DNA from: a virus
DNA: 31,526 bases
Direction: 5' to 3' (one strand)
Virus record (IMG/VR): IMGVR_UViG_3300025949_000067
Coordinates: 1 to 31,526 of that record
The notes beneath the pieces are model-generated. The model had not been told where the DNA came from. It did not search any database and saw only the letters and a list, made by a program, of their open reading frames with translations. The translations under genes and the position numbers were made by a program. Numbering within the stretch: position 1 is the stretch's first letter; every line of letters starts with the position of its first letter. Below, piece after piece: positions 8,698-30,582 of this stretch.

Positions 8698-10881
8698 TTA
8701 TGCCGCGAGCGGCTGAGCCTGTTGCACGGGTTCGGCGGCAGGCTGTTCGATTTGCGGCTGCATCGGTTGCGGCGCCGGTGCCCCGCCCTGCTCTCCACCA
8801 GCAGGCCCCTCACGAAGCATCGACATGATGGTCTGCATGATGAGCGGCTGAACCTGTCCCTGCGTCACGTAGGGGCCGGCATTGCCTTCTGCGACGAGCC
8901 GCTTCGTATCGGCTTCGAAGGCACGGATGTTTTTCTCGTCGATCTTGATTGCATAATCGAGCTGCTGGCTTTCCAGCTTCTTGTTGAGTTCGACCACGGC
9001 GTTGCTGGCTTCCTGCAACTGCTGCGTGAGCGTCTGAACTTCCTTGCTCGGGCCATCGCCCTTGATGTTGTCGGGAATCGTCTTGGCCCAGCGTTCCGAC
9101 AGCTGATCGGCCATCGGGAAATCCGCGGCCTTCCACATCAGGTCGCCGCCGATCTGCATGAACTCTTTGTTCTGCGACGCTATCTGCGTCATGGCGTTGA
9201 AGGCTTCCTGTCGACGGGTCGCGTAGGCTGGCCCAATATCGCTCACCACCTCATAGCGACCAACGTTCGGGTTGAAGATCGCCTCAACCTGCTGGGCCTC
9301 TTCCTGCTGTGCTTTGGCGTACGCCTGCTTGGCCTCCGGGTCCAACTGGACATGGCTTTCCGTGCCATCCTTGGCGAGGATACGAAGAATGCGCGGTGTG
9401 TCGTAGTAGTGCGGGATCGCGTCGATCAGGATTTTGCCGGTGAACCGGATGCCGATCGCGAGATTGTCGATGTAGTGGTACGTCGCGTTGTCGCCCTGAC
9501 GCTGACGAGCGTTGATCGCCTTGCCAGACGTCGCGTTTTCGTTCTGTCCGAACTGCGACTGATACTGTCCCGAGGACATCATCATCTCGTTCTGGGTGAT
9601 TTGCAGGCCCTGCACATAGGCGGATGCGAGAATGGCGGGCTGCACACGCTCGGGCGCTGGGATGGTCTTTCCGTCCTCGGTCAGGGCATTGTACGGCAGC
9701 ACCGCGACTTCATCGATGTTGGCGCGGCCCCAATATTCCTCGAGGTTGTCGATCGCCTCTGCCGGAGCGACCCAGGGCGTCTTGGTCTGCAACGCGATCT
9801 GAGCCGTCGCTTCGCTGGTCCAGTAGTTGTACATCCGCTGCGCGTCTTTCATCGCGCGGGTGTGGCCCTTGCGGTCCAGTTTGCCTTCGATGATCGTCTC
9901 TTCGCCAATGACGCGGACGATCGGCACGTACTTACCCAGCCAGGGGCGGCGATCGATGATTTTGGACCCGGCGATCTTGTACCACATCACCAGATCGGTG
10001 AGGATTTCGCGCTCATTGACCACATCAGGCGCGGCCTGTTTTACGGCCTCGTAAAGCGCCTTCACCTCAGCCGACATCTTGCTTTTCGGCATGACGATCT
10101 GTTGACCGGCACCAGCGGCCGGCTGGCCGTTGATCAGGTCCGGAATGACGAACGCAACCAGCGTGTCCTTCTTCTGGGTCTTCTCGTAATATTCACAGAC
10201 GCGAACGTGGTCTTCATCGATCCACGTATCACCCGCCTGCCCCAGCACCGACATGCCGGCGTCGTCTTTGAAGTCCGGATATTCCTTGTTGAACTCGTCG
10301 CGCGGCTTGTCCTCGAACACAAATCCATAGCGCGCATCCGACCCATCGACCTCCGAAATGTCGGGATCAAGATAGACCGAGTCCGGCTGCTTCACGCGCC
10401 GGATGTAGAGTTCCTGATCGAAGCTGTCGTTGCTCACATAGTCGGTGACCACGCGCCAGTAGCCGATGCCGCCCTCAACCTGGAACGTCGTCGCCGTGTC
10501 GTATGCGACCTCGGCATTGCTTTGGTACTCGATGTGGCGAACGATGCCTTCAAACGTCTGTGCAGCATCGTAGGTGGCGCCATCTCCCACCGGCCGAATG
10601 TTCACGCCCGGCTTGTTCTGCTTCGCGTCGTTGATGATCTGCAGATTGTGCTGGCGCACCTTGTTGATGGTCAGGCACGGCTTCTTGCGGTCCTGCCGAT
10701 AGGTCATCAACTGGCTGTCCCACTGCCAGTTATTGTCGGGGTCCGCGTTGGCGAACTTCAGGTCTTGGATGAAGTTCTTGCGGGCGTTGCCTTCCCACTC
10801 TTCGCACAACGCGAAGCGCTGTTTGGCGCGAGCGACAATGGCATCGTCACCGGTCAGCGATGAGGTGGAACCGTCAGCCAT
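8698..10881 (-). CDS. Portal protein, P22 gp1-like
   Basis: The 727-residue product matches P22 portal in length (725) and in its N-terminal pattern. That pattern is an acidic helical opening (RFALCEEWEGNARKNFIQD), then PCLTINKVRQHNLQIINDAK and a central segment with VEGGIGYWRVVTDYV and DSVYLDPDISEVDGSDARY. The C-terminal 120 residues contain coiled coil (QLQEASNAVVELNKKLES) and a Gln/Pro/Ala-rich tail, in the position of the P22 barrel. It forms the dodecameric ring through which DNA is packaged and ejected. I chose the ATG at 10881, which overlaps the terminase stop as TGATG. A TTG four codons earlier is possible but has no advantage. Confidence 0.92.
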   Translation of the reverse strand: MADGSTSSLTGDDAIVARAKQRFALCEEWEGNARKNFIQDLKFANADPDNNWQWDSQLMTYRQDRKKPCLTINKVRQHNLQIINDAKQNKPGVNIRPVGDGATYDAAQTFEGIVRHIEYQSNAEVAYDTATTFQVEGGIGYWRVVTDYVSNDSFDQELYIRRVKQPDSVYLDPDISEVDGSDARYGFVFEDKPRDEFNKEYPDFKDDAGMSVLGQAGDTWIDEDHVRVCEYYEKTQKKDTLVAFVIPDLINGQPAAGAGQQIVMPKSKMSAEVKALYEAVKQAAPDVVNEREILTDLVMWYKIAGSKIIDRRPWLGKYVPIVRVIGEETIIEGKLDRKGHTRAMKDAQRMYNYWTSEATAQIALQTKTPWVAPAEAIDNLEEYWGRANIDEVAVLPYNALTEDGKTIPAPERVQPAILASAYVQGLQITQNEMMMSSGQYQSQFGQNENATSGKAINARQRQGDNATYHYIDNLAIGIRFTGKILIDAIPHYYDTPRILRILAKDGTESHVQLDPEAKQAYAKAQQEEAQQVEAIFNPNVGRYEVVSDIGPAYATRRQEAFNAMTQIASQNKEFMQIGGDLMWKAADFPMADQLSERWAKTIPDNIKGDGPSKEVQTLTQQLQEASNAVVELNKKLESQQLDYAIKIDEKNIRAFEADTKRLVAEGNAGPYVTQGQVQPLIMQTIMSMLREGPAGGEQGGAPAPQPMQPQIEQPAAEPVQQAQPLAA

Positions 10882-13595
10882 CAACCCATCCAACTCTGCG
10901 AACCCTGCGCCGGCCTCGGGGGGCCCTTCGGCAACGGCAGCTTTGCTTTCTCGCGCACCGCACGGTCGCGGATGTACCAGGCCATCACCACCGCATCGGC
11001 TTCATCCGGGGATGATCCAAGCCGAGCCTTGATCGCCTCTTTGCTTTCGATCTGAATCTTGCCCGACCGCTCGCGCCAGAGGCCTGCGGTCAACTGCGCC
11101 ATCAGCCTGTCGCCGGGCGGCAAAATGATGTTCTCGCCATTGTCGGGATCGAGAGCGGTTCGAAATTCCCAGTACATCTTGGCCCGCAGATTGGCGTATT
11201 CCAGACCCGTGTCCTTGTCGGTGCCTTCGCCCGCTGACGAAAACACAATCGGGACTGCGGCAATTCCGTTGTTCGTCTTCAGGTGATCGCGAGCCGAACC
11301 GCCCCAGCCGCCCGTCATGTCGATGCCGATAGCCGCACTGTCGCGTCGCAGTTTCAGGATCAGGGCTGCCACACTTGGGCCGTCCGGCGTTTCACTCCCC
11401 GGTCGGCTTTCGACGCGCGCGAAATGATTGCCCTCATGCAGTCGAGCAATCGCGGTCTTGTCTGGGCCGCCTTGGGCTGGGTCGGTCGCAATCGCCTTCA
11501 TTCGTGCGACAGGATCGCCAGTCCATCGCGCCTGTGCGGCACGGACCCACAACGACGGGACAACCTGCCATTCGTCGTCTTCGCGACCGGCGAGGAAATC
11601 GCCAAGCAAAAGCTGGGAACGCCGCGGCTCGGGCTGCGCGTTGATCTGCGCCCGGTATTTGGTGTCCTTCAGGTACGGGTTGTCATCCAACTTGGATGGA
11701 ATGAAGGTCCGCGAAAGCGGCTCAAGAACCTTATACTTGTCCGGGTCAGCGAGTTCCGTTTCGTTTGCGATCCGCCAGCCGTCACCCTCAACAACGATCG
11801 GCTCCGGACCATCGACCCAGATCGTTCGAATTTCTGCCGCTGTACCGACCGCCGCAGCCCAGCGCAGTTCTCCCGGCATTGCCGGAATGGGAAACAACGG
11901 ATCAAGCCATGGCGCGAACCATTCCAGCAGCCACGCCCCCTCGTTGCCCATTGGCGGGTTCGAGGCGATAACTGCGCGGCAGCGTATTCCATCAGCAGAC
12001 CGAAGCCAGCCGAGCACGAACATGACCTTGTCGGCGCTGAGCTGGGCGCCTTCATCGAACCCGATAAGATCGTGCGGGCGACCCTGCCAGCTGAGTTCCG
12101 ACCCCGGCAATTCGAGATGGCCGCATTCGACCATTCGATTATCGTGGGTAGAAAGCTTCTTCTTGTTCGAGTCCTTGTGCCGCGGCTGCGGGTAGAGTTG
12201 CAGCAACCGTTCCCAGAAGCCGTCGAGATCGTTTGCCTGCCGGCGAAAGATCACCGACCGTTTATGTTCCGTCAGCGCGAGGCCGCACAGCAAATCCGTG
12301 TTGTGCGTCGGGATAAAGGACCGACCCGCGAGGTAGAGGTGTGATGGACTATCCACACCAATGCATCGCATAGGGATCGGGTCAATTTCCACCGCGGACA
12401 CGATGTAGCGAAACGCCCCAACGCGTCTTGTCTTTGCCTTCTGTCGAGCAAGTTTGCGGGGGAGCCGGAACACGGGACGCGCCGTGGTGAATTTAACCCG
12501 CCATTTCTTCCCAACGTAACGTCCGTTGAGCTTCGCTTTTCCCTCTGTGATAGTGGCCTTGATGCCGAGGCTCACAACAAGTTCATAGACCGCGCAGATC
12601 AGTCGATAGTTCGTGTTGTCGAACTCGCACCCGCCATCCAGGGCGGCATGACCATCAGTGTCCATGAGCCCTTGAAGAACGGCGGCGCGCTGCTCTTCAC
12701 TCGCTCTAAGGTATGCCGCAGGAACGTGCTTATTCTTTAGGAGCCCCGCTGCCCTCAATTGAGCTTTCAGCCCTCGAATATAATGGGACTGTGGGTCGCT
12801 TGGCGCATGCGTAACGACGTAGCCAGCATTTTCAATTTGCTGCCAGATGAACGGATCGATCCCGGTGAATCCGCCACTGCTCGATGTTCCATCCCCGAGC
12901 CACGCACCGAGGGTATAGGGGTCGATCGGTAGCTCGGCATGCGGAGTTTCTATTGCCTTCGAAACCTGGACCGCGTGGTTCCGACGACCGCGCGCTGTCA
13001 GAAGGGTGTCGACGACCTGCTGCGTCGTACGTACCGTACCCGACGGAACATCGGATCCCTTTGCCATGCGCGAGTTTCGGGCAGAGATAGCAGCCCGGAA
13101 CGCCGCGCTCTTGTTCGAGCCAGCGCGAGACGGACGTGCCGCCCGGCGCTTCGCGCGCCATGCATCAGATTTGCGCAGAAGACCCGCTAGTTCGTCGGCG
13201 TCGTAGGTCAACCAGAGATGATCAGCGCAACACTCAATCCTAGTTCCGTCGTCGAACTCGAGCCTGTAGGTCTTCGCTGTCTTTACCGGAGAGACCACCA
13301 GAACCCGAGTCGGCTTCCCCATCTCGTCGAACACCGTGTCTCCCACGGACACGTCGCCCATACGGACCCAGCCGGCTGGGGTCGGAAGAACCTCATCGAC
13401 ACTCAGGAGCTTTCCGCCACCAGCCGCGCCGCCATATAGCAGCAAGTCGGCTTCTGACAGAAATGCTTCGAGTTGTGGCCCCGGCGTCGGAAGCCACGGC
13501 TTTGCCAGTTCCTCAGCCAGAACCTTGTCGAGTTCCGCCATCCCCGCCTCATCAAGAGTGGCGAGCGCGGCATCCAGCCGATCAAGAGCGCCCAT
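10881..13595 (-). CDS. Large terminase subunit (packaging ATPase/nuclease) interrupted by an intein
   Basis: The 904-residue precursor consists of a 534-residue terminase and a 370-residue intein. Extein 1 ends with Walker A residues GGAAGGGK (55-62) and extein 2 starts TDLLCGLAL (433 on), so splicing rebuilds GGAAGGGKT. Walker B with the catalytic Glu is LIGFDE (Asp514, Glu515). The RNase H-like nuclease domain shows AIATDPAQGG, IGIDMTGGWGG and SSPDEADAV (Asp864, Asp867) as the expected three acidic motifs. Before splicing the P-loop is split, so the motor should be inactive. The gene directly follows the small subunit (TAGATG) and overlaps the portal start. ATPase and nuclease roles are family knowledge. 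Confidence 0.93.
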   Translation of the reverse strand: MGALDRLDAALATLDEAGMAELDKVLAEELAKPWLPTPGPQLEAFLSEADLLLYGGAAGGGKLLSVDEVLPTPAGWVRMGDVSVGDTVFDEMGKPTRVLVVSPVKTAKTYRLEFDDGTRIECCADHLWLTYDADELAGLLRKSDAWRAKRRAARPSRAGSNKSAAFRAAISARNSRMAKGSDVPSGTVRTTQQVVDTLLTARGRRNHAVQVSKAIETPHAELPIDPYTLGAWLGDGTSSSGGFTGIDPFIWQQIENAGYVVTHAPSDPQSHYIRGLKAQLRAAGLLKNKHVPAAYLRASEEQRAAVLQGLMDTDGHAALDGGCEFDNTNYRLICAVYELVVSLGIKATITEGKAKLNGRYVGKKWRVKFTTARPVFRLPRKLARQKAKTRRVGAFRYIVSAVEIDPIPMRCIGVDSPSHLYLAGRSFIPTHNTDLLCGLALTEHKRSVIFRRQANDLDGFWERLLQLYPQPRHKDSNKKKLSTHDNRMVECGHLELPGSELSWQGRPHDLIGFDEGAQLSADKVMFVLGWLRSADGIRCRAVIASNPPMGNEGAWLLEWFAPWLDPLFPIPAMPGELRWAAAVGTAAEIRTIWVDGPEPIVVEGDGWRIANETELADPDKYKVLEPLSRTFIPSKLDDNPYLKDTKYRAQINAQPEPRRSQLLLGDFLAGREDDEWQVVPSLWVRAAQARWTGDPVARMKAIATDPAQGGPDKTAIARLHEGNHFARVESRPGSETPDGPSVAALILKLRRDSAAIGIDMTGGWGGSARDHLKTNNGIAAVPIVFSSAGEGTDKDTGLEYANLRAKMYWEFRTALDPDNGENIILPPGDRLMAQLTAGLWRERSGKIQIESKEAIKARLGSSPDEADAVVMAWYIRDRAVREKAKLPLPKGPPRPAQGSQSWMG
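12300..13409 (-). mobile_element. Class-3-type intein with LAGLIDADG homing endonuclease, in TerL P-loop
   Basis: Intein residue numbers are used here. The first residue is Leu, not Cys, Ser or Ala, so the standard first nucleophile is absent. Block A reads LLSVDEVLPTPAGW. Block B is CADHLW, giving the conserved His64 and Trp66 at the B:12 position. Block F is PMRCIGV, with Cys349 at F:4. The C-terminus is PTHN (Thr368, His369, Asn370) followed by Thr at +1. This is the Trp-Cys-Thr signature of class 3 inteins, in which the block F Cys acts first. Between the splicing blocks lie two LAGLIDADG motifs, LGAWLGDGT (167-175) and LQGLMDTDG (245-253), with acidic residues intact, so homing may still occur. 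Insertion is between Lys and Thr of Walker A. Confidence 0.9.
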
Positions 13596-22252: not shown

Positions 22253-23071
22253 TTATGCCGCCTCGTCTGTGAACATGCCGCGGTCGGCAGCAATTCGCTG
22301 TTCAGCCAGCTCGGCAAATTCGGGGTTGAGTTCGATGAGAATGGCGTTGAGCCGCAGCCGGTCGGCAACGAGGCCGGTGGTTCCCGCACCGCCGAACGGA
22401 TCAAGCACCGTTCCACCAGGTGGACAGCTCGCCGCAATGCATGGTTCGATCAGGTCAGGCGGGAACGCCGCACTGTGGCCGTCATATCCTCGAGGAGAGA
22501 CTGTCCACACTGTGCCGTGCGGCAGCTTGCTCACGTCGAAATGGTAGTCCTTGTTCTTGGAGAACAGGAACAGCATTTCATGGGAGCCCGCCGGGCGGTC
22601 GGCGCGCGTCGGCTCAGTTGCCGAGCCCTTGTTCCAAACCACATCTCGTCGCAGATACCATCCTGCCGTGCGGAGCTTCGTGGCGACCAGCCACGGCACT
22701 CCAACGAGGTCTTTTTGCTTATATCCTGGCGGGGCATTGCGCCATCCGGTAAGATGCTTTCGATGGTCCCATTTGCCACCCCGCTTCGCCATGAGTTTGC
22801 CGCCGCCGCCCTTGCCGGATGCAGCGTAACTATCCCCGAGGTTCAGCCAAAACGAACCATCGTCGCGGAGCACTCGACGGCATTCGTCAAAGACCTCGAC
22901 CAAGGAGCCCGCAAAGGTCTCCGGCGTCGTTTCCATACCGAGCTGGCCCGGCATGCCATAATCCCGCTGTGCGCCCCAATAGGGCGGCGACGTGACGATG
23001 CAGTTGACCGAGCCGTCAGCCAGTTCCCGCAACTTCTCCCGGCAATCGCCAACGAGGATTGAAACCGTCAC
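22253..23071 (-). CDS. DNA methyltransferase (beta-class, N4-C or N6-A)
   Basis: A 272-residue single-domain methyltransferase with motif order IV then I. The catalytic motif is TSPPYWGAQRDYG (residues 27-39) and the S-adenosylmethionine motif is DPFGGAGTTG (224-233), which places it in the beta group. SPPY is typical of N4-cytosine enzymes but also occurs in N6-adenine enzymes, so the base cannot be fixed. The target-recognition region (about 85-150) is basic. Start is GTG with GGGGAGGGGAG just upstream, overlapping the previous stop (GTGA). No restriction endonuclease is next to it, so protection from host restriction or regulation is more likely than a full restriction system. Confidence 0.88.
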   Translation of the reverse strand: MTVSILVGDCREKLRELADGSVNCIVTSPPYWGAQRDYGMPGQLGMETTPETFAGSLVEVFDECRRVLRDDGSFWLNLGDSYAASGKGGGGKLMAKRGGKWDHRKHLTGWRNAPPGYKQKDLVGVPWLVATKLRTAGWYLRRDVVWNKGSATEPTRADRPAGSHEMLFLFSKNKDYHFDVSKLPHGTVWTVSPRGYDGHSAAFPPDLIEPCIAASCPPGGTVLDPFGGAGTTGLVADRLRLNAILIELNPEFAELAEQRIAADRGMFTDEAA

Positions 23072-25211: not shown

Positions 25212-25733
25212 TCATTCAGCCCTCGCAAATTCGCCATGAAGGCGGCCAGCAGCGACCACGTACGCCGCATGCGCTGCCTCCGGGCTGCCGAACGAGCCGA
25301 GGAAGTAGTTCTTGCCGTCGCGCATGATCTGGGCGACGTACTTGTCGCCACGCCGAAGGCTTACGCCCTTAGGCAGAGCCCGTTCATAGGGCCTTCTGTT
25401 GCGACAATTCTCAGCGATGCTGGCATCACGCAGGTTGACGAAGCGATTGTCTGCCGGGTCGCCGTTGGCATGATCAATGCACTGCTTCGGCCACTCGCCA
25501 TGCACAAAGAGCCACGCAAGGCGGTGAGCCACATAGGCTTTGCGCTTGAACTGGATTTTCACATAGCCCTTCACGAGCGACCCGGCCTTTTGGCCAGTAG
25601 CGCGCCACCGGAAAGTCCCGGTCAAAGGATCGTACGAAAGATGCTGACGAAGCTGATCTTCCATGCCGCCGCAAAGCGAGTCCCCGCTCGCAGCCCGCGC
25701 GTTTCCTTGATCGTGATCGGCGGGACGGATCAT
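25212..25733 (-). CDS. HNH-AP2 endonuclease
   Basis: The 173-residue product carries an HNH nuclease (about residues 60-112: YVAHRLAWLFVHGEWPKQCI, then DHANGDPADNRFVNLRDASI, with His70, Asp87-His88 and Asn96) followed by an AP2 DNA-binding domain (about 121-168: PKGVSLRRGDKYVAQIMRDG, KNYFLGSFGSPEAAHAAYVV). This pairing is typical of free-standing phage homing endonucleases. The start at 25733 overlaps the ParB-like stop (ATGA), so it is translationally coupled despite its mobile nature. All catalytic residues are present. It is followed by the structured non-coding region. Confidence 0.88.
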   Translation of the reverse strand: MIRPADHDQGNARAASGDSLCGGMEDQLRQHLSYDPLTGTFRWRATGQKAGSLVKGYVKIQFKRKAYVAHRLAWLFVHGEWPKQCIDHANGDPADNRFVNLRDASIAENCRNRRPYERALPKGVSLRRGDKYVAQIMRDGKNYFLGSFGSPEAAHAAYVVAAGRLHGEFARAE

Positions 25734-26602
25734 GCCGCTCCCCGGTCCATGACGCTCTGACCCGTGATGTTGGTCAACTCGTGGGCAATATTCGATGCAC
25801 CAGAGGCGTAGAGGTTTGCCTTGATGGCGTCCCACCATTCGCCGGGGACGTGCTCAGCGATCATCTCAGCAACCTCTTTGGCCGCCCTCGCCTTCACGTC
25901 ACCTTGGATTTTGTTGCGCTTGGCGGTTTCGGCTTTCGATCGCTCATCCTGACGCTGGCGTTGATTGGCGAAAGCGAGGTCGCGGGTCGCGGCTTTCACC
26001 TGATCGTTCGGTGGCATCTTCTTGAGTTTGTCGAGATAGGTGCCGGTATCGAGCGATGTTCCGCGAATGAGGTCGAGAACTTCGTCAATGACCTTTTCGC
26101 CGCGCTCGGCATCACGTTGGACGGTTCTTTCGTCAACGCCGATCGCGGCGGCAGTGGAGGCGGCAAACGACACTGCACGGCCTGCCGCCCCCTGCCTCGC
26201 CAGTCCGCCGGCAACGCCTTGTTTTGTCTCTGGATGCAGCGCCTCGTAAGCCTCTTTGCGCCGCTTGGTGAAGCGGGCGCGGTCGGACGGGCTGAGTTGT
26301 GGAGCGCAGAGGTTTTCGTCACACTCCGCGATCTGGCATTCGAGGTCGGACAGGTCGAGGATATTGGCTTCGATCTCGACCAGCCCGAGACGTTCGCAAG
26401 CTGTCTTGCGATGAAGGCCCGCCACGAGTCCGTAACCATCGACCTGATTGCCGCCGCGAAACAGTTTGCGCGGATAGACGGTGATCGGGTTCAAGAGCCC
26501 GACATCGCCAATGCTGTTGACCAGTGCGGTGACGGTGGCCTCGCTGAGGTCGCGCAACCGCTGGCCGTTCTCAATCAGGTCTACGGGGATCGTGGCGAGC
26601 AT
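25730..26602 (-). CDS. ParB N-domain protein
   Basis: A 290-residue protein whose first 130 residues are a ParB/Srx-like domain: IPVDLIENGQRLRDLSEATV, then LVNSIGDVGLLNPITVYP and the box GYGLVAGLHRKTACERLGL. A following HTH-like segment (SFAASTAAAIGVDERTVQRD) is the expected DNA-binding part. The C-terminal half is a charged helix (RQRQDERSKAETAKRNKIQG) with a variable end. In phage early regions such proteins are often regulators or accessory factors rather than true partition proteins, and no ParA is seen here. It starts directly after the upstream stop (TAAATG) and overlaps the HNH gene. Confidence 0.82.
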   Translation of the reverse strand: MLATIPVDLIENGQRLRDLSEATVTALVNSIGDVGLLNPITVYPRKLFRGGNQVDGYGLVAGLHRKTACERLGLVEIEANILDLSDLECQIAECDENLCAPQLSPSDRARFTKRRKEAYEALHPETKQGVAGGLARQGAAGRAVSFAASTAAAIGVDERTVQRDAERGEKVIDEVLDLIRGTSLDTGTYLDKLKKMPPNDQVKAATRDLAFANQRQRQDERSKAETAKRNKIQGDVKARAAKEVAEMIAEHVPGEWWDAIKANLYASGASNIAHELTNITGQSVMDRGAA

Positions 26603-27667
26603 TTAGGCCACCTGCTTGATCGGCTTGCCGTCAAACGGCGTGCCTTCGATCATCGGGACAAAGGTGTCCATGACCTTGATAATCTGGAGCGACCTCTCAT
26701 TGAAAAAGGCGTTCCATGCGATGATGGCCGGGGCGAAGGCATCGCTCCGAGCGGAGTTGGTTTTGCGGGTCATGAAGTCGTTGCAGAGGGCAAGGCGAGG
26801 GTCGCCACGCTTCAGGCCGTCGTTGTGCGCAACGCCGCTCCAGAACTCCCACGCGGTTTCGGACTGATACCGGAAGGTCGCTACCGCGACGGCGACAACG
26901 GCACCGCTCTTGAACTTCGGCCGGCGACTGCCCGGCATCCCCTCAATTGCCGCCGCAAGCCGGTTCGCGGCCTTGGCGTACTCAGCGGCAAAGGCAAGGC
27001 GCTGATCGACCTGTTTGTCGATGAGGAAGTTCTTCAGGCGAGGGTCGATGGCAAACTTCGACGCGAGGTAGGGCACGGCGCGATAGAGCGCGTCGGCAAT
27101 CTCTCCGGTGACGCCGGTAATGTCCCCGAACTCAGCGGCCTTGAGAATGTCGCGAGAGTTGCGAGCGCGGAGGTTGGTGTCGAAGGCATAGTAGAGCGAC
27201 CGCAGGTCGGCTTCGGTCTTGCACGGGTGCAGGGCGATCGACCACACGATGGTCTTGCCGCTGCGCACCTGGGCATAGCCCCGGTGATAGCCGTTGATGA
27301 GGATGTAGCGGCCGTTGAGTACCGCGAAGTCGATCTGGCTCTTGGGTTGCCAGCGGCCACGCTTCATCAAATCGGCCAGCACGAGCATATGGCGCTCGGA
27401 AACCGAACGCTGGTGCTCATAGCCGCAATTGAGAAGAACACGGTTCATTTCGAGGGGGGACAAACTGGTCACACCCTCGGTCAAAAAGTCGCGAACCCCT
27501 TGCTGGTCTGGGGCACTCAGTTTATCAAGCATTTGGGAATTGCTCCGGGCCGCACCTTCGGGTTGCGGCCCTTTTTTCTGGATCGCGCCCCGTCCCGCGA
27601 TTTGAGCAACCGACAACTTGTCAGTTGCTATTTTCAAACTCTCAGACTTGATAGTTTGACCGCTCAC
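26603..27667 (-). CDS. ParB/NGQHR-like protein
   Basis: This 354-residue protein has a central segment FAVLNGRYILINGYHRGYAQ followed by SGKTIVWSIALHPCKTEADL and YYAFDTNLRARNSRDILKAA. The layout resembles ParB-like or DGQHR/NGQHR-type proteins, except that the usual Gln of NGQHR is Tyr. The rest is helical without recognised motifs. The start is GTG overlapping the Cro-like stop (GTGA), with a GGGGTGG tract upstream. It and the next gene form a tandem ParB-like pair. Function is unknown; DNA binding or nucleotide-dependent regulation is possible. Confidence 0.6.
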   Translation of the reverse strand: MSGQTIKSESLKIATDKLSVAQIAGRGAIQKKGPQPEGAARSNSQMLDKLSAPDQQGVRDFLTEGVTSLSPLEMNRVLLNCGYEHQRSVSERHMLVLADLMKRGRWQPKSQIDFAVLNGRYILINGYHRGYAQVRSGKTIVWSIALHPCKTEADLRSLYYAFDTNLRARNSRDILKAAEFGDITGVTGEIADALYRAVPYLASKFAIDPRLKNFLIDKQVDQRLAFAAEYAKAANRLAAAIEGMPGSRRPKFKSGAVVAVAVATFRYQSETAWEFWSGVAHNDGLKRGDPRLALCNDFMTRKTNSARSDAFAPAIIAWNAFFNERSLQIIKVMDTFVPMIEGTPFDGKPIKQVA

Positions 27668-27876
27668 GCGGCCACCCCGAACACGTCGGGACGCAGATCG
27701 TGACGCGACACGCCGGTCAGTCGCTCCACCTCGATCACGCGATCAGCGGGCACCTGCTTGCGCTTGCGCCAGTTCAACACAACGCTGGGATTGGAAATGC
27801 CGAGCGCCGCCGCCGCTTTGGACGGCCCGCCGAGGGCTTCGATTACCTGTTCAACGGGGGAGAGCTTCTTGCGCAT
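27664..27876 (-). CDS. Cro/YdaS-like transcriptional regulator
   Basis: A 70-residue HTH protein with VIEALGGPSKAAAALGISNP, SVVLNWRKRKQVPADRVIEV and ERLTGVSRHDLRPDVFG, the pattern of the YdaS/Cro-like family used as Cro in lambdoid phages. It is divergent from the CI-like repressor and starts the minus early operon. No Shine-Dalgarno sequence precedes the ATG (ATTGCTTCGGT). The predicted -10 is so close that the message could be leaderless or nearly so. Confidence 0.85.
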   Translation of the reverse strand: MRKKLSPVEQVIEALGGPSKAAAALGISNPSVVLNWRKRKQVPADRVIEVERLTGVSRHDLRPDVFGVAA

Positions 27877-27962
27877 ACCGAAGCAATATCACGTAGCGTG
27901 AAGATATTTCAAGCCGTGATGCGTGAATATTTTTGCCGGACGCGCCATGCGATATCTTAAGC
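27877..27962. promoter_or_regulatory. Divergent cro/cI-type promoter-operator region
   Basis: On the minus strand TTGAAA (27912-27907), 16 bases, GATATT (27890-27885) would drive the Cro-like gene. The perfect palindrome TCACGTAGCGTGA (27889-27901) lies between and over these elements. A degenerate second site (CCGTGATGCGTGA, 27914-27926) flanked by ATATT/AATAT lies beyond the -35. On the plus strand TATCTT (27953-27958) is a possible -10 for the repressor, only a few bases before its ATG at 27963. Operator binding by either regulator is inferred. Confidence 0.65.
27889..27901. promoter_or_regulatory. Operator copy 1 (TCACGTAGCGTGA)
   Basis: A perfect 13-bp palindrome with 5-bp arms. The reverse complement is identical to the copy at 28621. 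It overlaps the Cro-like promoter spacer and -10. Confidence 0.75.
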
Positions 27963-28253
27963 ATGGCAGACGGTGGAAAAAGCCCGGAAGATATCGGACT
28001 GCGGCTCACCGCATTGCGCGAGGCTATGGGGTTAAACCAAGCCGCGTTCGCCAAACTGGTCGGGTTCTCTCAGCCCGCGCTCGCCAACTATGAGAAGGGC
28101 TATCGACGCCCGAACACTGACCAGGCTATCCAGATCGTGACCCGCACGGGCATCACGCTGGACTGGCTCTATCTCGGGGAGCGAGCGGGCCTGAGCCAGC
28201 GACTGCTGGCACTAATCGGAGACTTCGAGTCTCGCCAGCGGAAGGCCGGATAA
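27963..28253 (+). CDS. CI-like Xre repressor, HTH-only
   Basis: The 96-residue product is an Xre-family HTH (residues about 10-65: IGLRLTALREAMGLNQAAFA, then KLVGFSQPALANYEKGYRRP and DQAIQIVTRTGITLDWLYLG). There is no C-terminal LexA/S24-like peptidase domain, so RecA-dependent self-cleavage cannot occur by the lambda route. The best start is the ATG at 27963 with no Shine-Dalgarno sequence. An upstream in-frame TTG would add ten unlikely residues. Divergence from a Cro-like gene and the shared operators identify it as the likely lysogenic repressor. Its last 101 bases overlap a convergent minus-strand gene. Confidence 0.85.
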   Translation: MADGGKSPEDIGLRLTALREAMGLNQAAFAKLVGFSQPALANYEKGYRRPNTDQAIQIVTRTGITLDWLYLGERAGLSQRLLALIGDFESRQRKAG

Positions 28254-28389
28254 CCGGCCCCTCTGTGGCGCTCAGGTGCTGCACCAAGTCTCGCGTCACG
28301 TCCAGCACGTATAGGGCCTCAGCGTCAGTCTCCGGCAGCTGCGCCGCTATCTGCAATGCCAATCGCTTTAAGTGTTCCGAGCCAACCAT
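28153..28389 (-). CDS. Small gene antisense to the repressor 3' end
   Basis: A 78-residue protein starting MVGSEHLKRLALQIAAQLPE, then TDAEALYVLDVTRDLVQHLS, a helical layout seen in small alphaproteobacterial phage proteins. The ATG has GGGGGAG six bases upstream and a TTGACA promoter with operator-like sites further upstream, so the start is better supported than the 96-codon version beginning earlier. Its final 101 bases run antisense to the end of the repressor gene. The last 20 residues, encoded in the overlap, are less protein-like. Function unknown. Confidence 0.55.
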   Translation of the reverse strand: MVGSEHLKRLALQIAAQLPETDAEALYVLDVTRDLVQHLSATEGPVIRPSAGETRSLRLVPAVAGSGPLAPRDRASPA

Positions 28390-28420
28390 CGGTTGCTCCC
28401 CCTGTTCCACCTTTGTTCTA

Positions 28421-28440
28421 ATTCCTAGGAATGTATTCCT
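28421..28440. promoter_or_regulatory. AGGAAT/ATTCCT palindrome over a -10 element
   Basis: ATTCCT-AGGAAT-GT-ATTCCT forms two overlapping perfect palindromes (28421-28432 and 28427-28440). It covers the -10 of the minus-strand promoter for the 28389 gene and differs from the TCACG operator, so a second regulator may bind here. Confidence 0.55.
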
Positions 28441-28459
28441 CACGCGCTGTGAGTGTCAA
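28430..28459 (-). promoter_or_regulatory. Promoter of the 28389 antisense gene
   Basis: On the minus strand TTGACA (28459-28454), 18 bases, TACATT (28435-28430). Operator copy 2 lies in the spacer and the AGGAAT palindrome overlaps the -10. The message would start about 25 bases before the ATG at 28389 and run into the 3' part of the repressor gene. Confidence 0.6.
28440..28452. promoter_or_regulatory. Operator copy 2 (TCACGCGCTGTGA)
   Basis: Same TCAC...GTGA layout with one arm mismatch. It lies in the spacer of the minus-strand TTGACA promoter. Confidence 0.55.
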
Positions 28460-28620
28460 TGCCGCAGATCGCCCTCTGCGGGTTGGTCACAGTAGCGCCC
28501 CGCATACGATTCCGCGCAGAGGAAAGTTGCATCGCCTTTGGCGTAAATGCCGGTCCATCCTTGTTAACAGCCTAGCCCCGCTGACGTTCCCGCCTTTGCC
28601 GGGACGGCGCAGAACTATTT

Positions 28621-28633
28621 TCACGCTACGTGA
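28621..28633. promoter_or_regulatory. Operator copy 3 (TCACGCTACGTGA)
   Basis: Perfect 13-bp palindrome, identical to the reverse complement of copy 1. It lies about 30 bases upstream of copy 4 and of the plus-strand early promoter. Confidence 0.75.
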
Positions 28634-28651
28634 TGTTTTGCTCTTGAACCT

Positions 28652-28664
28652 TCACGCGGCGTGA
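28652..28664. promoter_or_regulatory. Operator copy 4 (TCACGCGGCGTGA) on an extended -10
   Basis: Perfect 13-bp palindrome whose last bases create the extended -10 TGATATACC (28662-28670) of the plus-strand early operon. The -35 is weak, as expected for extended -10 promoters. In copy 1 the same operator-TAT junction occurs on the minus strand. Confidence 0.7.
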
Positions 28665-28725
28665 TATACCTTCCTCGCATACCGATGGCCAACGAGGTCA
28701 TCGAACGCAGCGAGGATGAAGAGCC

Positions 28726-28989
28726 ATGGACACCAACAACGGACCGAAGGTGAAGTGGTGGTCAACCGATTTCGGCCACACCGTTCGTCAGCGCCTCTAC
28801 GTCAACGGCAATGAGACGCCCTACTTCGTGGATAGCGCGCATACCGCCGGCCACAAGTCGCAGGGCGACGAGCACGGCCTCTACGGTTCCGGCATGCACC
28901 CCAAGGGCATTGCCCTGCTGCTCGCCAGCGGTCGCCGCGTAACCCCCCTCAAGCATCGCGCCGAACAGATGGCGCTCGAAGCCGCCTAG
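28726..28989 (+). CDS. First gene of the plus-strand early operon, unknown
   Basis: An 87-residue protein with an aromatic N-terminal strand (KVKWWSTDFGHTVRQRLYVN), a central His/Gly-rich segment (SAHTAGHKSQGDEHGLYGSG) and a basic helical end. No family recognised. The ATG is preceded by GAGGA about 11 bases upstream. It follows operator copies 3 and 4, so it is expected to be repressed in the lysogen. Confidence 0.6.
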   Translation: MDTNNGPKVKWWSTDFGHTVRQRLYVNGNETPYFVDSAHTAGHKSQGDEHGLYGSGMHPKGIALLLASGRRVTPLKHRAEQMALEAA

Positions 28990-29041
28990 TTCAAATCAAC
29001 CCGAGGGCCAGTGTCCTCGTATCAACATGGGAATTGGGAAA

Positions 29042-29224
29042 ATGACGGACGACAAACCAACTTACGACGATTTGGTCGAAGCCCTTCGCGCCATCGCGCT
29101 CGACGTAAACCATGCGCTCATGGTGCTGCCGGCCCCGACCGCCGGACAGGAAAAGCGCGCGTGGTCATCGCTGCTCGACGCAAAGCGCGTCGTTGAAGCT
29201 GCCCTCGCCAAGGCCACCGCCTGA
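29042..29224 (+). CDS. Small helical early protein
   Basis: This 60-residue protein reads MTDDKPTYDDLVEALRAIAL and ends in an Ala-rich helix (DAKRVVEAALAKATA). I prefer the ATG at 29042, which has GGGA a few bases upstream; an ATG five codons earlier has no ribosome binding site. Function unknown. Confidence 0.6.
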   Translation: MTDDKPTYDDLVEALRAIALDVNHALMVLPAPTAGQEKRAWSSLLDAKRVVEAALAKATA

Positions 29225-29225
29225 A

Positions 29226-29555
29226 ATGACCATCACCTCCACGACCGCTCCGATGCTGTTTGACGCTGATGGCGACTTCTCCGGCTACGCCATTCCAGAC
29301 TGTGATCCCGTTTCAATCGATACGAAGTGGGTAACGAAATGGGGCTGCGAAGACGACCTGCTGTACGTGGTCCGTTGGGCTGATGGCACCGTTGCCGAAA
29401 TGGTTTCGTTCGCCAACCCACGGTGGCATCAAATCTTCGTTGCCGGGATCGTTGAGCGGTCGCGGGCGAACCTGCGCAAACTCGACGCAACGCTGTCGGA
29501 ACTGCGTTCCACACCACTAACGCAATCGCTGGAGAACCGCAATGTCGTTGCTTAG
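29226..29555 (+). CDS. Small early protein
   Basis: The 109-residue product begins MTITSTTAPMLFDADGDFSG, then an acidic strand region (VTKWGCEDDLLYVVRWADG) and a helical C-terminus. It starts one base after the previous stop and overlaps the next gene by 14 bases. The larger frame opening earlier overlaps the previous gene and is not supported. No family recognised. Confidence 0.58.
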   Translation: MTITSTTAPMLFDADGDFSGYAIPDCDPVSIDTKWVTKWGCEDDLLYVVRWADGTVAEMVSFANPRWHQIFVAGIVERSRANLRKLDATLSELRSTPLTQSLENRNVVA

Positions 29556-29943
29556 CGACCATCGTCCAGTCGATCAGCGCCCCGGCAAGTATTGGGCGCG
29601 TCCGGCCACGGCGCTCACCTCGTCCGACCAACTGCGGCCGGGACAGCATGTCTGGCACCTATATCTGTGGGACGAGTGGCGCTTGCCCGAGCGGATCGCA
29701 ATCCAGCGGGTCGGTACGCTCGAAGAAGTCTCCGGGCACAACCCAGCGCCGGGCCTACTTCGCGGTGTCTGGTTTGAAGGCAATGCAGGCCGCGCGCATT
29801 CCTGCACCGATTGCTCGCTCGACGGTGCTGACGGCAACAACAGCTACCTGTTTGCCTCAGAACAAGACGCGCTCGACGCCCTCGAAAACCGCGTTCCACG
29901 TCGCGCCTCCGCTCAACACGAGGGGCATGGGGAAACGGCATGA
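29542..29943 (+). CDS. Early protein with Trp-rich N-terminus
   Basis: A 133-residue protein with WHLYLWDEWRLPERIAIQRV in its first half, a short CTDC motif near residue 90 and an acidic C-terminal region. GGAGA lies about five bases before the ATG. The stop overlaps the next ATG (ATGA). No family recognised. Confidence 0.58.
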   Translation: MSLLSDHRPVDQRPGKYWARPATALTSSDQLRPGQHVWHLYLWDEWRLPERIAIQRVGTLEEVSGHNPAPGLLRGVWFEGNAGRAHSCTDCSLDGADGNNSYLFASEQDALDALENRVPRRASAQHEGHGETA

Positions 29944-30185
29944 CTGGCACGAAGTCAACGCGCGGCGCTGTCCTGCAATTCGAGATCGACCGCAAGCGGT
30001 GGAACGACGACGCGTCATTCAACGTCGCCAAGTACAGCAGCGAAACGCCGTACGACCGTCTCTACGCGATGGCAAAGACCGCCGTCTGCGACACGATATT
30101 CAAGGGCGGCACGTTCGTTCTGGTCGCGACAGACGACAAGATCACGATGGTGCAGCGCCCCGACGCGGAGGACATGCCGGAATGA
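29940..30185 (+). CDS. Small early protein
   Basis: This 81-residue protein has RGAVLQFEIDRKRWNDDASF, then YDRLYAMAKTAVCDTIFKGG and a closing VLVATDDKITMVQRP. It overlaps both neighbours by four bases (ATGA at each end), which strongly supports a real, co-translated gene. Function unknown. Confidence 0.62.
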   Translation: MTGTKSTRGAVLQFEIDRKRWNDDASFNVAKYSSETPYDRLYAMAKTAVCDTIFKGGTFVLVATDDKITMVQRPDAEDMPE

Positions 30186-30316
30186 CCGTCACGCCCCGCT
30201 ATTCCCCCGCCATAGAGCGCGCGGTTCAAGCCGACAATCGCGCTCGCCTGTTGAGTGTCGTCGCTGTCGTCCAAGCAGCAATGCCTAAGCCATCACAATC
30301 GGAGAAGAAGATATGA
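30182..30316 (+). CDS. Very small early gene (44 residues)
   Basis: A short protein MTVTPRYSPAIERAVQADNR with a hydrophobic helix (RLLSVVAVVQAAM). It is supported by ATGA overlaps with both the preceding and following genes rather than by homology. It is short enough that gene finders may miss it or call a longer wrong frame from 29648. Confidence 0.5.
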   Translation: MTVTPRYSPAIERAVQADNRARLLSVVAVVQAAMPKPSQSEKKI

Positions 30317-30582
30317 ACGTCCATGCTGCGTTCCGCCATGTTCCTCCGCCGATCTCCCGGTCAAGGCGTGAAGTGCTGCGCAACGAATACCTGGCCTTTG
30401 CCTCGCTCGCCTTGACGCAGCGCCGCCTGTCATGGGTGGCACGTCACAGGGCTAGGGAAGCCGAGACGGAAGCCAAGCTTGATGACTACCGGCACTTTGC
30501 CAAGGAAGCCCGCCGACTGTGGCGCGAGGCCATCTATCACCTTGGCGCAGCTCAGGATCGGAAGGCAGAACTCAATGGCTGA
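30313..30582 (+). CDS. Basic helical early protein
   Basis: An 89-residue Arg/Ala-rich helical protein (RREVLRNEYLAFASLALTQR, HRAREAETEAKLDDYRHFAK). GGAGAAGAAG precedes the ATG and the stop lies within the start of the Gp157-like gene. It may bind nucleic acid; function unknown. Confidence 0.62.
   Translation: MNVHAAFRHVPPPISRSRREVLRNEYLAFASLALTQRRLSWVARHRAREAETEAKLDDYRHFAKEARRLWREAIYHLGAAQDRKAELNG

Follow-up and report, generated by a model that had tools for sequence, protein, structure and literature searches.

What is the function of a small gene that is encoded opposite the 3' end of a phage repressor gene and reads into it? This question is raised by the virus record IMGVR_UViG_3300025949_000067 of IMG/VR, which was analysed over its entire length of 31,526 bases (the window) and in which the 78-codon open reading frame (ORF) ORF78 is convergent with a small repressor gene. 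An earlier note on this DNA had proposed that transcription of this gene lowers the level of a CI-like repressor by antisense RNA or collision. In this study, we observed that the gene is conserved and that a LexA/SOS box is present at its promoter, both of which had been missed, and these two observations point to a protein that is induced by the SOS response. The reading that we favour, with some caution, is that ORF78 encodes an SOS-inducible antirepressor, which is located within the immunity region opposite a repressor that is not cleavable.

Relatives of ORF78 and their pairing with a small repressor

Used alone as a query, ORF78 yielded no relatives in viral contigs, genome contigs, phages or plasmids, including zero tblastn matches at E ≤ 1 against 50,697 phage records, and the repressor alone yielded nothing in viral contigs. 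The entry point was a tblastn search of phages with the repressor (68 records, three of which were inspected). It led to two Bradyrhizobium phages, both with an annotated gene antisense into the repressor 3' end whose N-terminus shares a motif with ORF78; the third inspected record, L004, has no gene with this motif. Profiles of the repressor and of the neighbouring Cro-like protein were built from the window and these two phages, and the repressor scan then gave 15 viral and 3 genome loci, with a motif gene facing the repressor in 9 of the 15 and in none of the 3. The motif alignments were seeded by members found via the repressor, whereas the motif scans themselves ignored the repressor. In viral contigs these scans gave 11, then 22 and again 22 loci, largely repeats. 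Searches of genome sets gave matches in 3 of 398, 1 of 385 (the centre genome itself), 5 of 248 and 2 of 199, with several genomes found more than once; searches with alignment A5 had none (0/1 and 0/289). Profiles and thresholds were chosen while the analysis ran.

Second copies (L003, L031, L033, L054-L060, L062-L066, L068, L069 and L072), L082 and L083 (which overlap L036 and L035) and L001 (a copy of the window) were removed. With L050 also set aside, 45 loci remained; grouped at 75% identity across the motif region, they form 32 clusters. Most loci are metagenomic. When L050 is counted, 5 of 33 clusters were reached via the repressor (the window, L002, L008, L014 and L016) and 28 via the motif.

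The motif gene faces a small helix-turn-helix (HTH) repressor in 32 of the 33 clusters, L050 being the exception, and the same holds for 27 of the 28 clusters from the motif route, in which the repressor was not used. A few of the repressor matches are weak, such as that of L049 (0.0034). Beyond the repressor, a Cro/YdaS-like gene on the strand of the motif gene is found in 30 of 32 representatives (exceptions L026 and L035). Thus, the tie to the repressor on which the earlier proposal was built is retained, as the convergence is conserved in all 32 repressor-paired representatives.

None of the 32 repressors matches Peptidase_S24 at E ≤ 0.01, and therefore they are not expected to cleave themselves under RecA in the way of the lambda repressor. 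The designation CI-like is appropriate for the DNA-binding part of the window's repressor (HTH_3) but not for its 96 residues as a whole, which lack an S24 match. In the distant relatives L018 and L021, the repressor has an S24 match and the motif gene is absent.

ORF78 is a real gene with a conserved, predicted helical hairpin

The 78-residue gene and its ribosome binding site, both described before, are well founded: the ATG is preceded by GGGGGAG, and the gene is kept in relatives. In an alignment of 19 short members, five residues (A11, Q17, L18, P19 and L29) are invariant within a stretch of about 40 residues. AlphaFold2 predicts helices at residues 4-16 and 22-41 with high confidence and a tail with low confidence; the repressor overlap codes for residues 46-78, which lie inside this tail. 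Compared with the closest relative, L023, codons 1-45 differ 17, 9 and 28 times at positions 1, 2 and 3, which is a coding signature, while for codons 46-78 the numbers are 13, 17 and 6, the pattern expected where the repressor frame dominates. The sequence comparison identifies ORF78 as a real gene; a chance ORF is ruled out by the conservation and the codon pattern.

No match to ORF78 was found in Pfam, PHROGs or NCBIfam, and 0 of 19 family members match Pfam, PHROGs or PADLOC. The protein family is new in that it is absent from these four libraries. A profile search of the PDB returned 10 sequences, the best (E 1.9e-4) being DHT03, a repetitive helical protein; these were taken as chance helix matches.

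In nine Bradyrhizobium-type records (L002 and L008-L015) the gene product is longer, at about 200 residues, and no SOS box lies upstream. In these versions the hairpin is fused to a hydrophobic region, and the protein appears to be membrane-bound. Two long versions were compared with families: that of L003 (from the phage of L009) has a match to DUF4118, and that of L014 has none.

The overlap and a possible effect at the RNA level

The 101-base antisense overlap reported previously is borne out by the ORF ends 28153 and 28253. At least 4 nucleotides of overlap between the 3' ends are present in 29 of the 32 representatives, the remaining ones being L073 (0), L016 (-1) and L024 (-4). In the window, no terminator-like site was found between ORF78 and the repressor. 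Since in addition the convergent geometry is kept, the two transcripts probably overlap.

These observations would suit a switch that operates mainly at the RNA level, in which collision or antisense RNA from the promoter at 28430 lowers the repressor and the protein is secondary; in all 32 repressor-paired clusters the 3' ends overlap or are at most 4 nucleotides apart. A precedent is found in the Staphylococcus aureus phage 80alpha, where antisense transcription from Pith-1 is described as mildly suppressing tha-1 (PMC11087260). However, according to the same source, inhibition in 80alpha is mostly due to the Ith-1 protein. Furthermore, the length of the overlap ranges from -4 to 121 nucleotides across the 32 representatives, its phase also varies, and the conserved hairpin sequence falls outside it. 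Together with the codon pattern, this indicates that convergence and hairpin are kept and the sequence of the overlap is not; the overlap itself is thereby ruled out as the conserved feature. We therefore regard an RNA-level switch as unlikely. Antisense transcription or collision, which the earlier note put forward as a way to lower the repressor, is not supported as the main mechanism, although it might add a second layer.

The putative ORF78 promoter carries several potential control elements

The reported promoter is indeed present as a promoter-like site. On the minus strand, the -35 hexamer TTGACA (28459-28454) and the -10 hexamer TACATT (28435-28430) are separated by 18 nucleotides and match the consensus at 10 of 12 positions, which makes this the best of three promoter-like sites in the region 26500-30500 (shuffles: mean 1.0, standard deviation 1.2). 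Within the spacer lies the TCACG operator that had been noticed before. It reads TCACAGCGCGTGA, one mismatch from TCACGNNNCGTGA, and is the only one-mismatch copy in the window. Three exact copies of TCACG-N3-CGTGA are present, at 27889, 28621 and 28652, all at most 800 bases around the repressor. With up to two mismatches the pattern is not enriched in the window (17 found, 22.3 expected), and thus only exact and one-mismatch operators were counted. The closest relative, L023, keeps the -35 element (as TTGACT) and the spacer operator (as TCACAGGGCGTGA), and has two sites that match the rightward early-side operators at 28621 and 28652.

The double palindrome was likewise recovered, as the dyad AGGAATACATTCCT and the perfect palindrome ATTCCTAGGAAT. 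Its AGGAA-N4-TTCCT pattern recurs exactly in L035 and L036 and with one mismatch in L023, and lies in the promoter region in all four loci including the window. More than one control element is therefore located at this promoter, as had been suspected: operator, dyad and, in addition, the SOS box.

A LexA/SOS box upstream of the motif gene

The motif GTTC-N7-GTTC has been described as the LexA motif of alphaproteobacteria (PMC3323433) and is a candidate site for host LexA in the window. In a first set, the box was present upstream in 11 of 27 loci (1000 shuffles: mean 0.17, maximum 2). The box is likewise enriched in the subsequent count, which left out the window that had suggested it: in 10 of 31 clusters it precedes the motif gene by at most 150 nucleotides, as against a mean of 0.135 and a maximum of 2 in 3000 shuffles. 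With any other spacer length between 2 and 13, the count is 0 or 1. Eight genomes have a motif match, and in all 7 that were examined the start of the genome's own lexA gene is preceded by one such box, 65-164 nucleotides upstream; 3 of these 7 contain a box-bearing module.

Within the subfamily of the window, the box is located downstream of the -10 element in the window, abuts the -35 element in L035 and L036, and is absent in L023. The different positions in the window and in L035/L036 suggest separate gains. The chromosomal loci L035 and L036, neither of which has a Cro-profile match, also contain an ORF that resembles the LexA DNA-binding domain (L035:345-716, minus strand, by PF01726; L036:2383-2790, plus strand, by similarity). 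It is too short for the LexA peptidase part and lies on the strand of the hairpin gene, about 430 nucleotides beyond the repressor start. Such a short LexA-like protein might be a competitor of host LexA for binding to the SOS box.

Dyads shared with the Cro-repressor region

In 11 of 24 loci, the Cro-repressor region has a dyad in common with the sequence upstream of the motif gene (p ≤ 0.015; about 0.005 for the window). The p values are uncorrected and based on 200 shuffles per locus, and the 24 loci are partly dependent, as L002/L015, L008/L009 and L045/L048 each belong to one cluster. All five Bradyrhizobium-type loci that were tested share such a dyad. Its sequence differs between phages, as expected if the gene is controlled by the repressor or Cro of each phage. 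These patterns suggest that some members of the family are controlled by SOS and others by an operator; the window bears both signals.

Control elements of this kind also bear on whether the repressor is the target at all. A superinfection-exclusion or other accessory protein could reside in an immunity region with another target, and the Bradyrhizobium-type versions do resemble membrane proteins, with the matches to DUF4118 (L003) and to nothing (L014) given above. Moreover, exclusion activity is described for small genes that overlap within the regulatory region of the Pseudomonas aeruginosa phage Fc02 (PMC9936078). SOS boxes or immunity-type dyads at the promoter, however, are more readily expected of a switch gene than of one expressed in lysogeny, the pairing with the repressor is nearly constant, and none of the 19 members has a PADLOC match. 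We thus consider an exclusion or accessory function to be improbable.

Proposed mechanism

One third of the clusters have an SOS box, and the pairing with a repressor that lacks an S24 domain is nearly constant; both fit the antirepressor role. In a lysogen, two proteins would keep the ORF78 promoter closed: the phage repressor (or Cro), acting at the spacer operator, and host LexA, acting at the SOS box. DNA damage would destroy LexA, which would allow the hairpin protein to be produced. This protein would then inactivate the repressor and so release both its own promoter and the lytic promoters, and transcription from the ORF78 promoter, which opposes the repressor gene, may cut repressor expression further. 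We infer all of these steps, namely binding of LexA and the repressor to their sites, binding of the hairpin protein to the repressor, and induction, from the sequence.

Several observations weigh against an SOS-inducible antirepressor. Taken by itself, the window has no significant excess of the box (2 matches against 1.16 expected). Of the 31 other clusters, 21 lack the box, among them that of the closest relative, L023; it is also missing in 8 of the 9 clusters that were found last. Thirteen of the 24 loci miss the dyad threshold, among them L023 (p 0.09) despite its visible spacer operator, and of the 8 dyad-tested loci with an SOS box only the window and L032 combine box and dyad. A promoter that is also closed by the phage repressor might stay shut under SOS alone. 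The membrane-type versions of about 200 residues without a box are not typical of small antirepressors, and a Foldseek search gave no structural match. The contrast with the S24-containing repressors of L018 and L021 is weak, because other, more distant repressor loci outside the S24 comparison (L004-L007, L017, L019, L020 and L022) also lack the motif gene. Finally, L050 (1522-1689, plus strand) has a partial motif match with no repressor nearby, which may be a remnant or a false positive.

It is tempting to speculate that a single SOS promoter exerts three actions, i.e., production of the antirepressor, convergent transcription against the repressor, and read-through into the Cro-like gene, with the membrane-fused versions holding the repressor at the membrane. 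In such a scheme, which we put forward only tentatively, the repressor would sit within an inverted, noncontiguous 'exit operon'. The proposal is weakened by a weak terminator-like site at 27901-27889, ahead of the Cro-like gene, which is the operator itself. That the hairpin protein instead aids the repressor or Cro, for example as a co-repressor or as a timing factor in early infection, would agree with its small size and its near-constant partnership with both genes, but an SOS-induced co-repressor would presumably work against prophage exit, and we consider this very unlikely.

If ORF78 is an SOS-inducible antirepressor, it would provide a testable route by which prophages with repressors that do not cut themselves could sense DNA damage. 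The family pairs with S24-less repressors in numerous phages, known Bradyrhizobium phages among them. Its promoters form a natural series, in which some have a host LexA box, others a phage operator and at least two the combination. It would also be a recurrent example of a switch gene that lies opposite its probable target gene.

Genomic context

The features of the immunity region are listed in Table 1. The Cro-like protein matches YdaS (PF15943, 2e-16), NF046037 (2.9e-13) and P22_Cro (1.8e-9). No Rfam family was found in the region 27600-28800.

Table 1. Positions of genes and sequence elements around ORF78 in the window.
Feature	Position	Strand	Remarks
ORF78, antisense gene	28153..28389	-	78 codons; ATG at 28389, stop codon ends at 28153
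ORF78 product			conserved helical hairpin (residues 4-41) and unconserved tail; candidate antirepressor
Small HTH_3 repressor	27963..28253	+	96 residues, no S24 peptidase match
Antisense overlap of ORF78 tail and repressor 3' end	28153..28253		101 nucleotides
Cro/YdaS-like DNA-binding protein	27664..27876	-	divergent from the repressor; profile matches
Promoter-like site of ORF78, sigma-70 type	28430..28459	-	TTGACA-18-TACATT
Immunity-type operator TCACAGCGCGTGA	28440..28452		read on the minus strand (28452-28440); within the promoter spacer, between the hexamers
Dyad AGGAA-N4-TTCCT, AGGAATACATTCCT	28427..28440		spans the -10 element
Perfect palindrome ATTCCTAGGAAT	28421..28432		overlaps the AGGAATACATTCCT dyad
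LexA/SOS box GTTC-N7-GTTC, GTTCCACCTTTGTTC	28404..28418		just downstream of the -10 element; sequence match
Immunity operator TCACGTAGCGTGA	27889..27901		upstream of the Cro-like gene; counterpart in L023 is TCACGCTGCGTGA
Immunity operator TCACGCTACGTGA	28621..28633		rightward early side
Immunity operator TCACGCGGCGTGA	28652..28664		rightward early side

To the left of the Cro-like gene (25730-27667, minus strand) are adjacent genes for a ParB-like protein of 290 residues and for a protein of 354 residues. The latter matches a PHROG of unknown function and gave no homology match in phages or viral contigs. An N6/N4 DNA methylase gene is located at 22253-23071 on the minus strand (PF01555, 6.6e-39). 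A 904-codon ORF (10881-13595, minus strand) has a LAGLIDADG domain match at residues 301-360; its translation reads like a large terminase subunit with an intein-like insert, and no match to a terminase family was found. The window further contains a P22-like portal gene and terminates within a Rad52/Erf-like annealing gene.

Comparison with known systems

Among open-licence papers, as judged by titles and the beginnings of abstracts, we found no account of the ORF78 family or of its arrangement. Temperate phages of Rhizobium are described as carrying a putative antirepressor with a Bro domain, which is a different protein from ORF78 (PMC8631192). In the TF-smORF pair VqmA-Qtip, in which a transcription factor (TF) is combined with a small ORF (smORF), a small protein without recognizable domains inactivates a repressor (PMC10432266), as we infer for ORF78. 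In that system, however, control is exerted by a neighbouring transcription factor and is described as independent of SOS, with the transcription factor gene divergent, whereas the window has an SOS box and its neighbouring HTH gene is convergent.

The geometry has a parallel in the noncontiguous operon ith-1/tha-1 of phage 80alpha, where the cI region contains a small, overlapping gene in antisense orientation that has a promoter of its own, and an inhibitor protein is combined with a minor transcriptional effect (PMC11087260). The target of Ith is a defence protein and not the repressor, and Pith-1 is described as constitutive (PMC11087260). The convergent geometry of a noncontiguous operon is present here at the level of the sequence, and the transcripts probably overlap.

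With respect to regulation, ORF78 would resemble the LexA-controlled antirepressors Tum of phage 186 and AntC of N15, which follow the same SOS logic (PMC3121763). Tum differs in that it is described as a protein of 146 residues with a DinI-like second half (PMC3121763). The Gifsy phages of Salmonella, according to Lemire (2011, PMC3121763), have non-cleaved repressors that are inactivated by small LexA-controlled antirepressors. ORF78 is like GfoA and GftA of these phages in its small size, in its predicted control by LexA, judged here from the box sequence, and in having a partner repressor without a self-cleavage domain. As in these two proteins, ORF78 would act by binding the repressor; a sequence relation was judged solely by the absence of a phage tblastn match. 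The Gifsy antirepressor genes are described as lying outside the immunity region, whereas ORF78 lies within this region, where it faces the repressor gene and overlaps its 3' end. By sequence, the window contains two of the hallmarks of a LexA-controlled antirepressor system, a LexA box at the promoter and a partner repressor without a self-cleavage domain.
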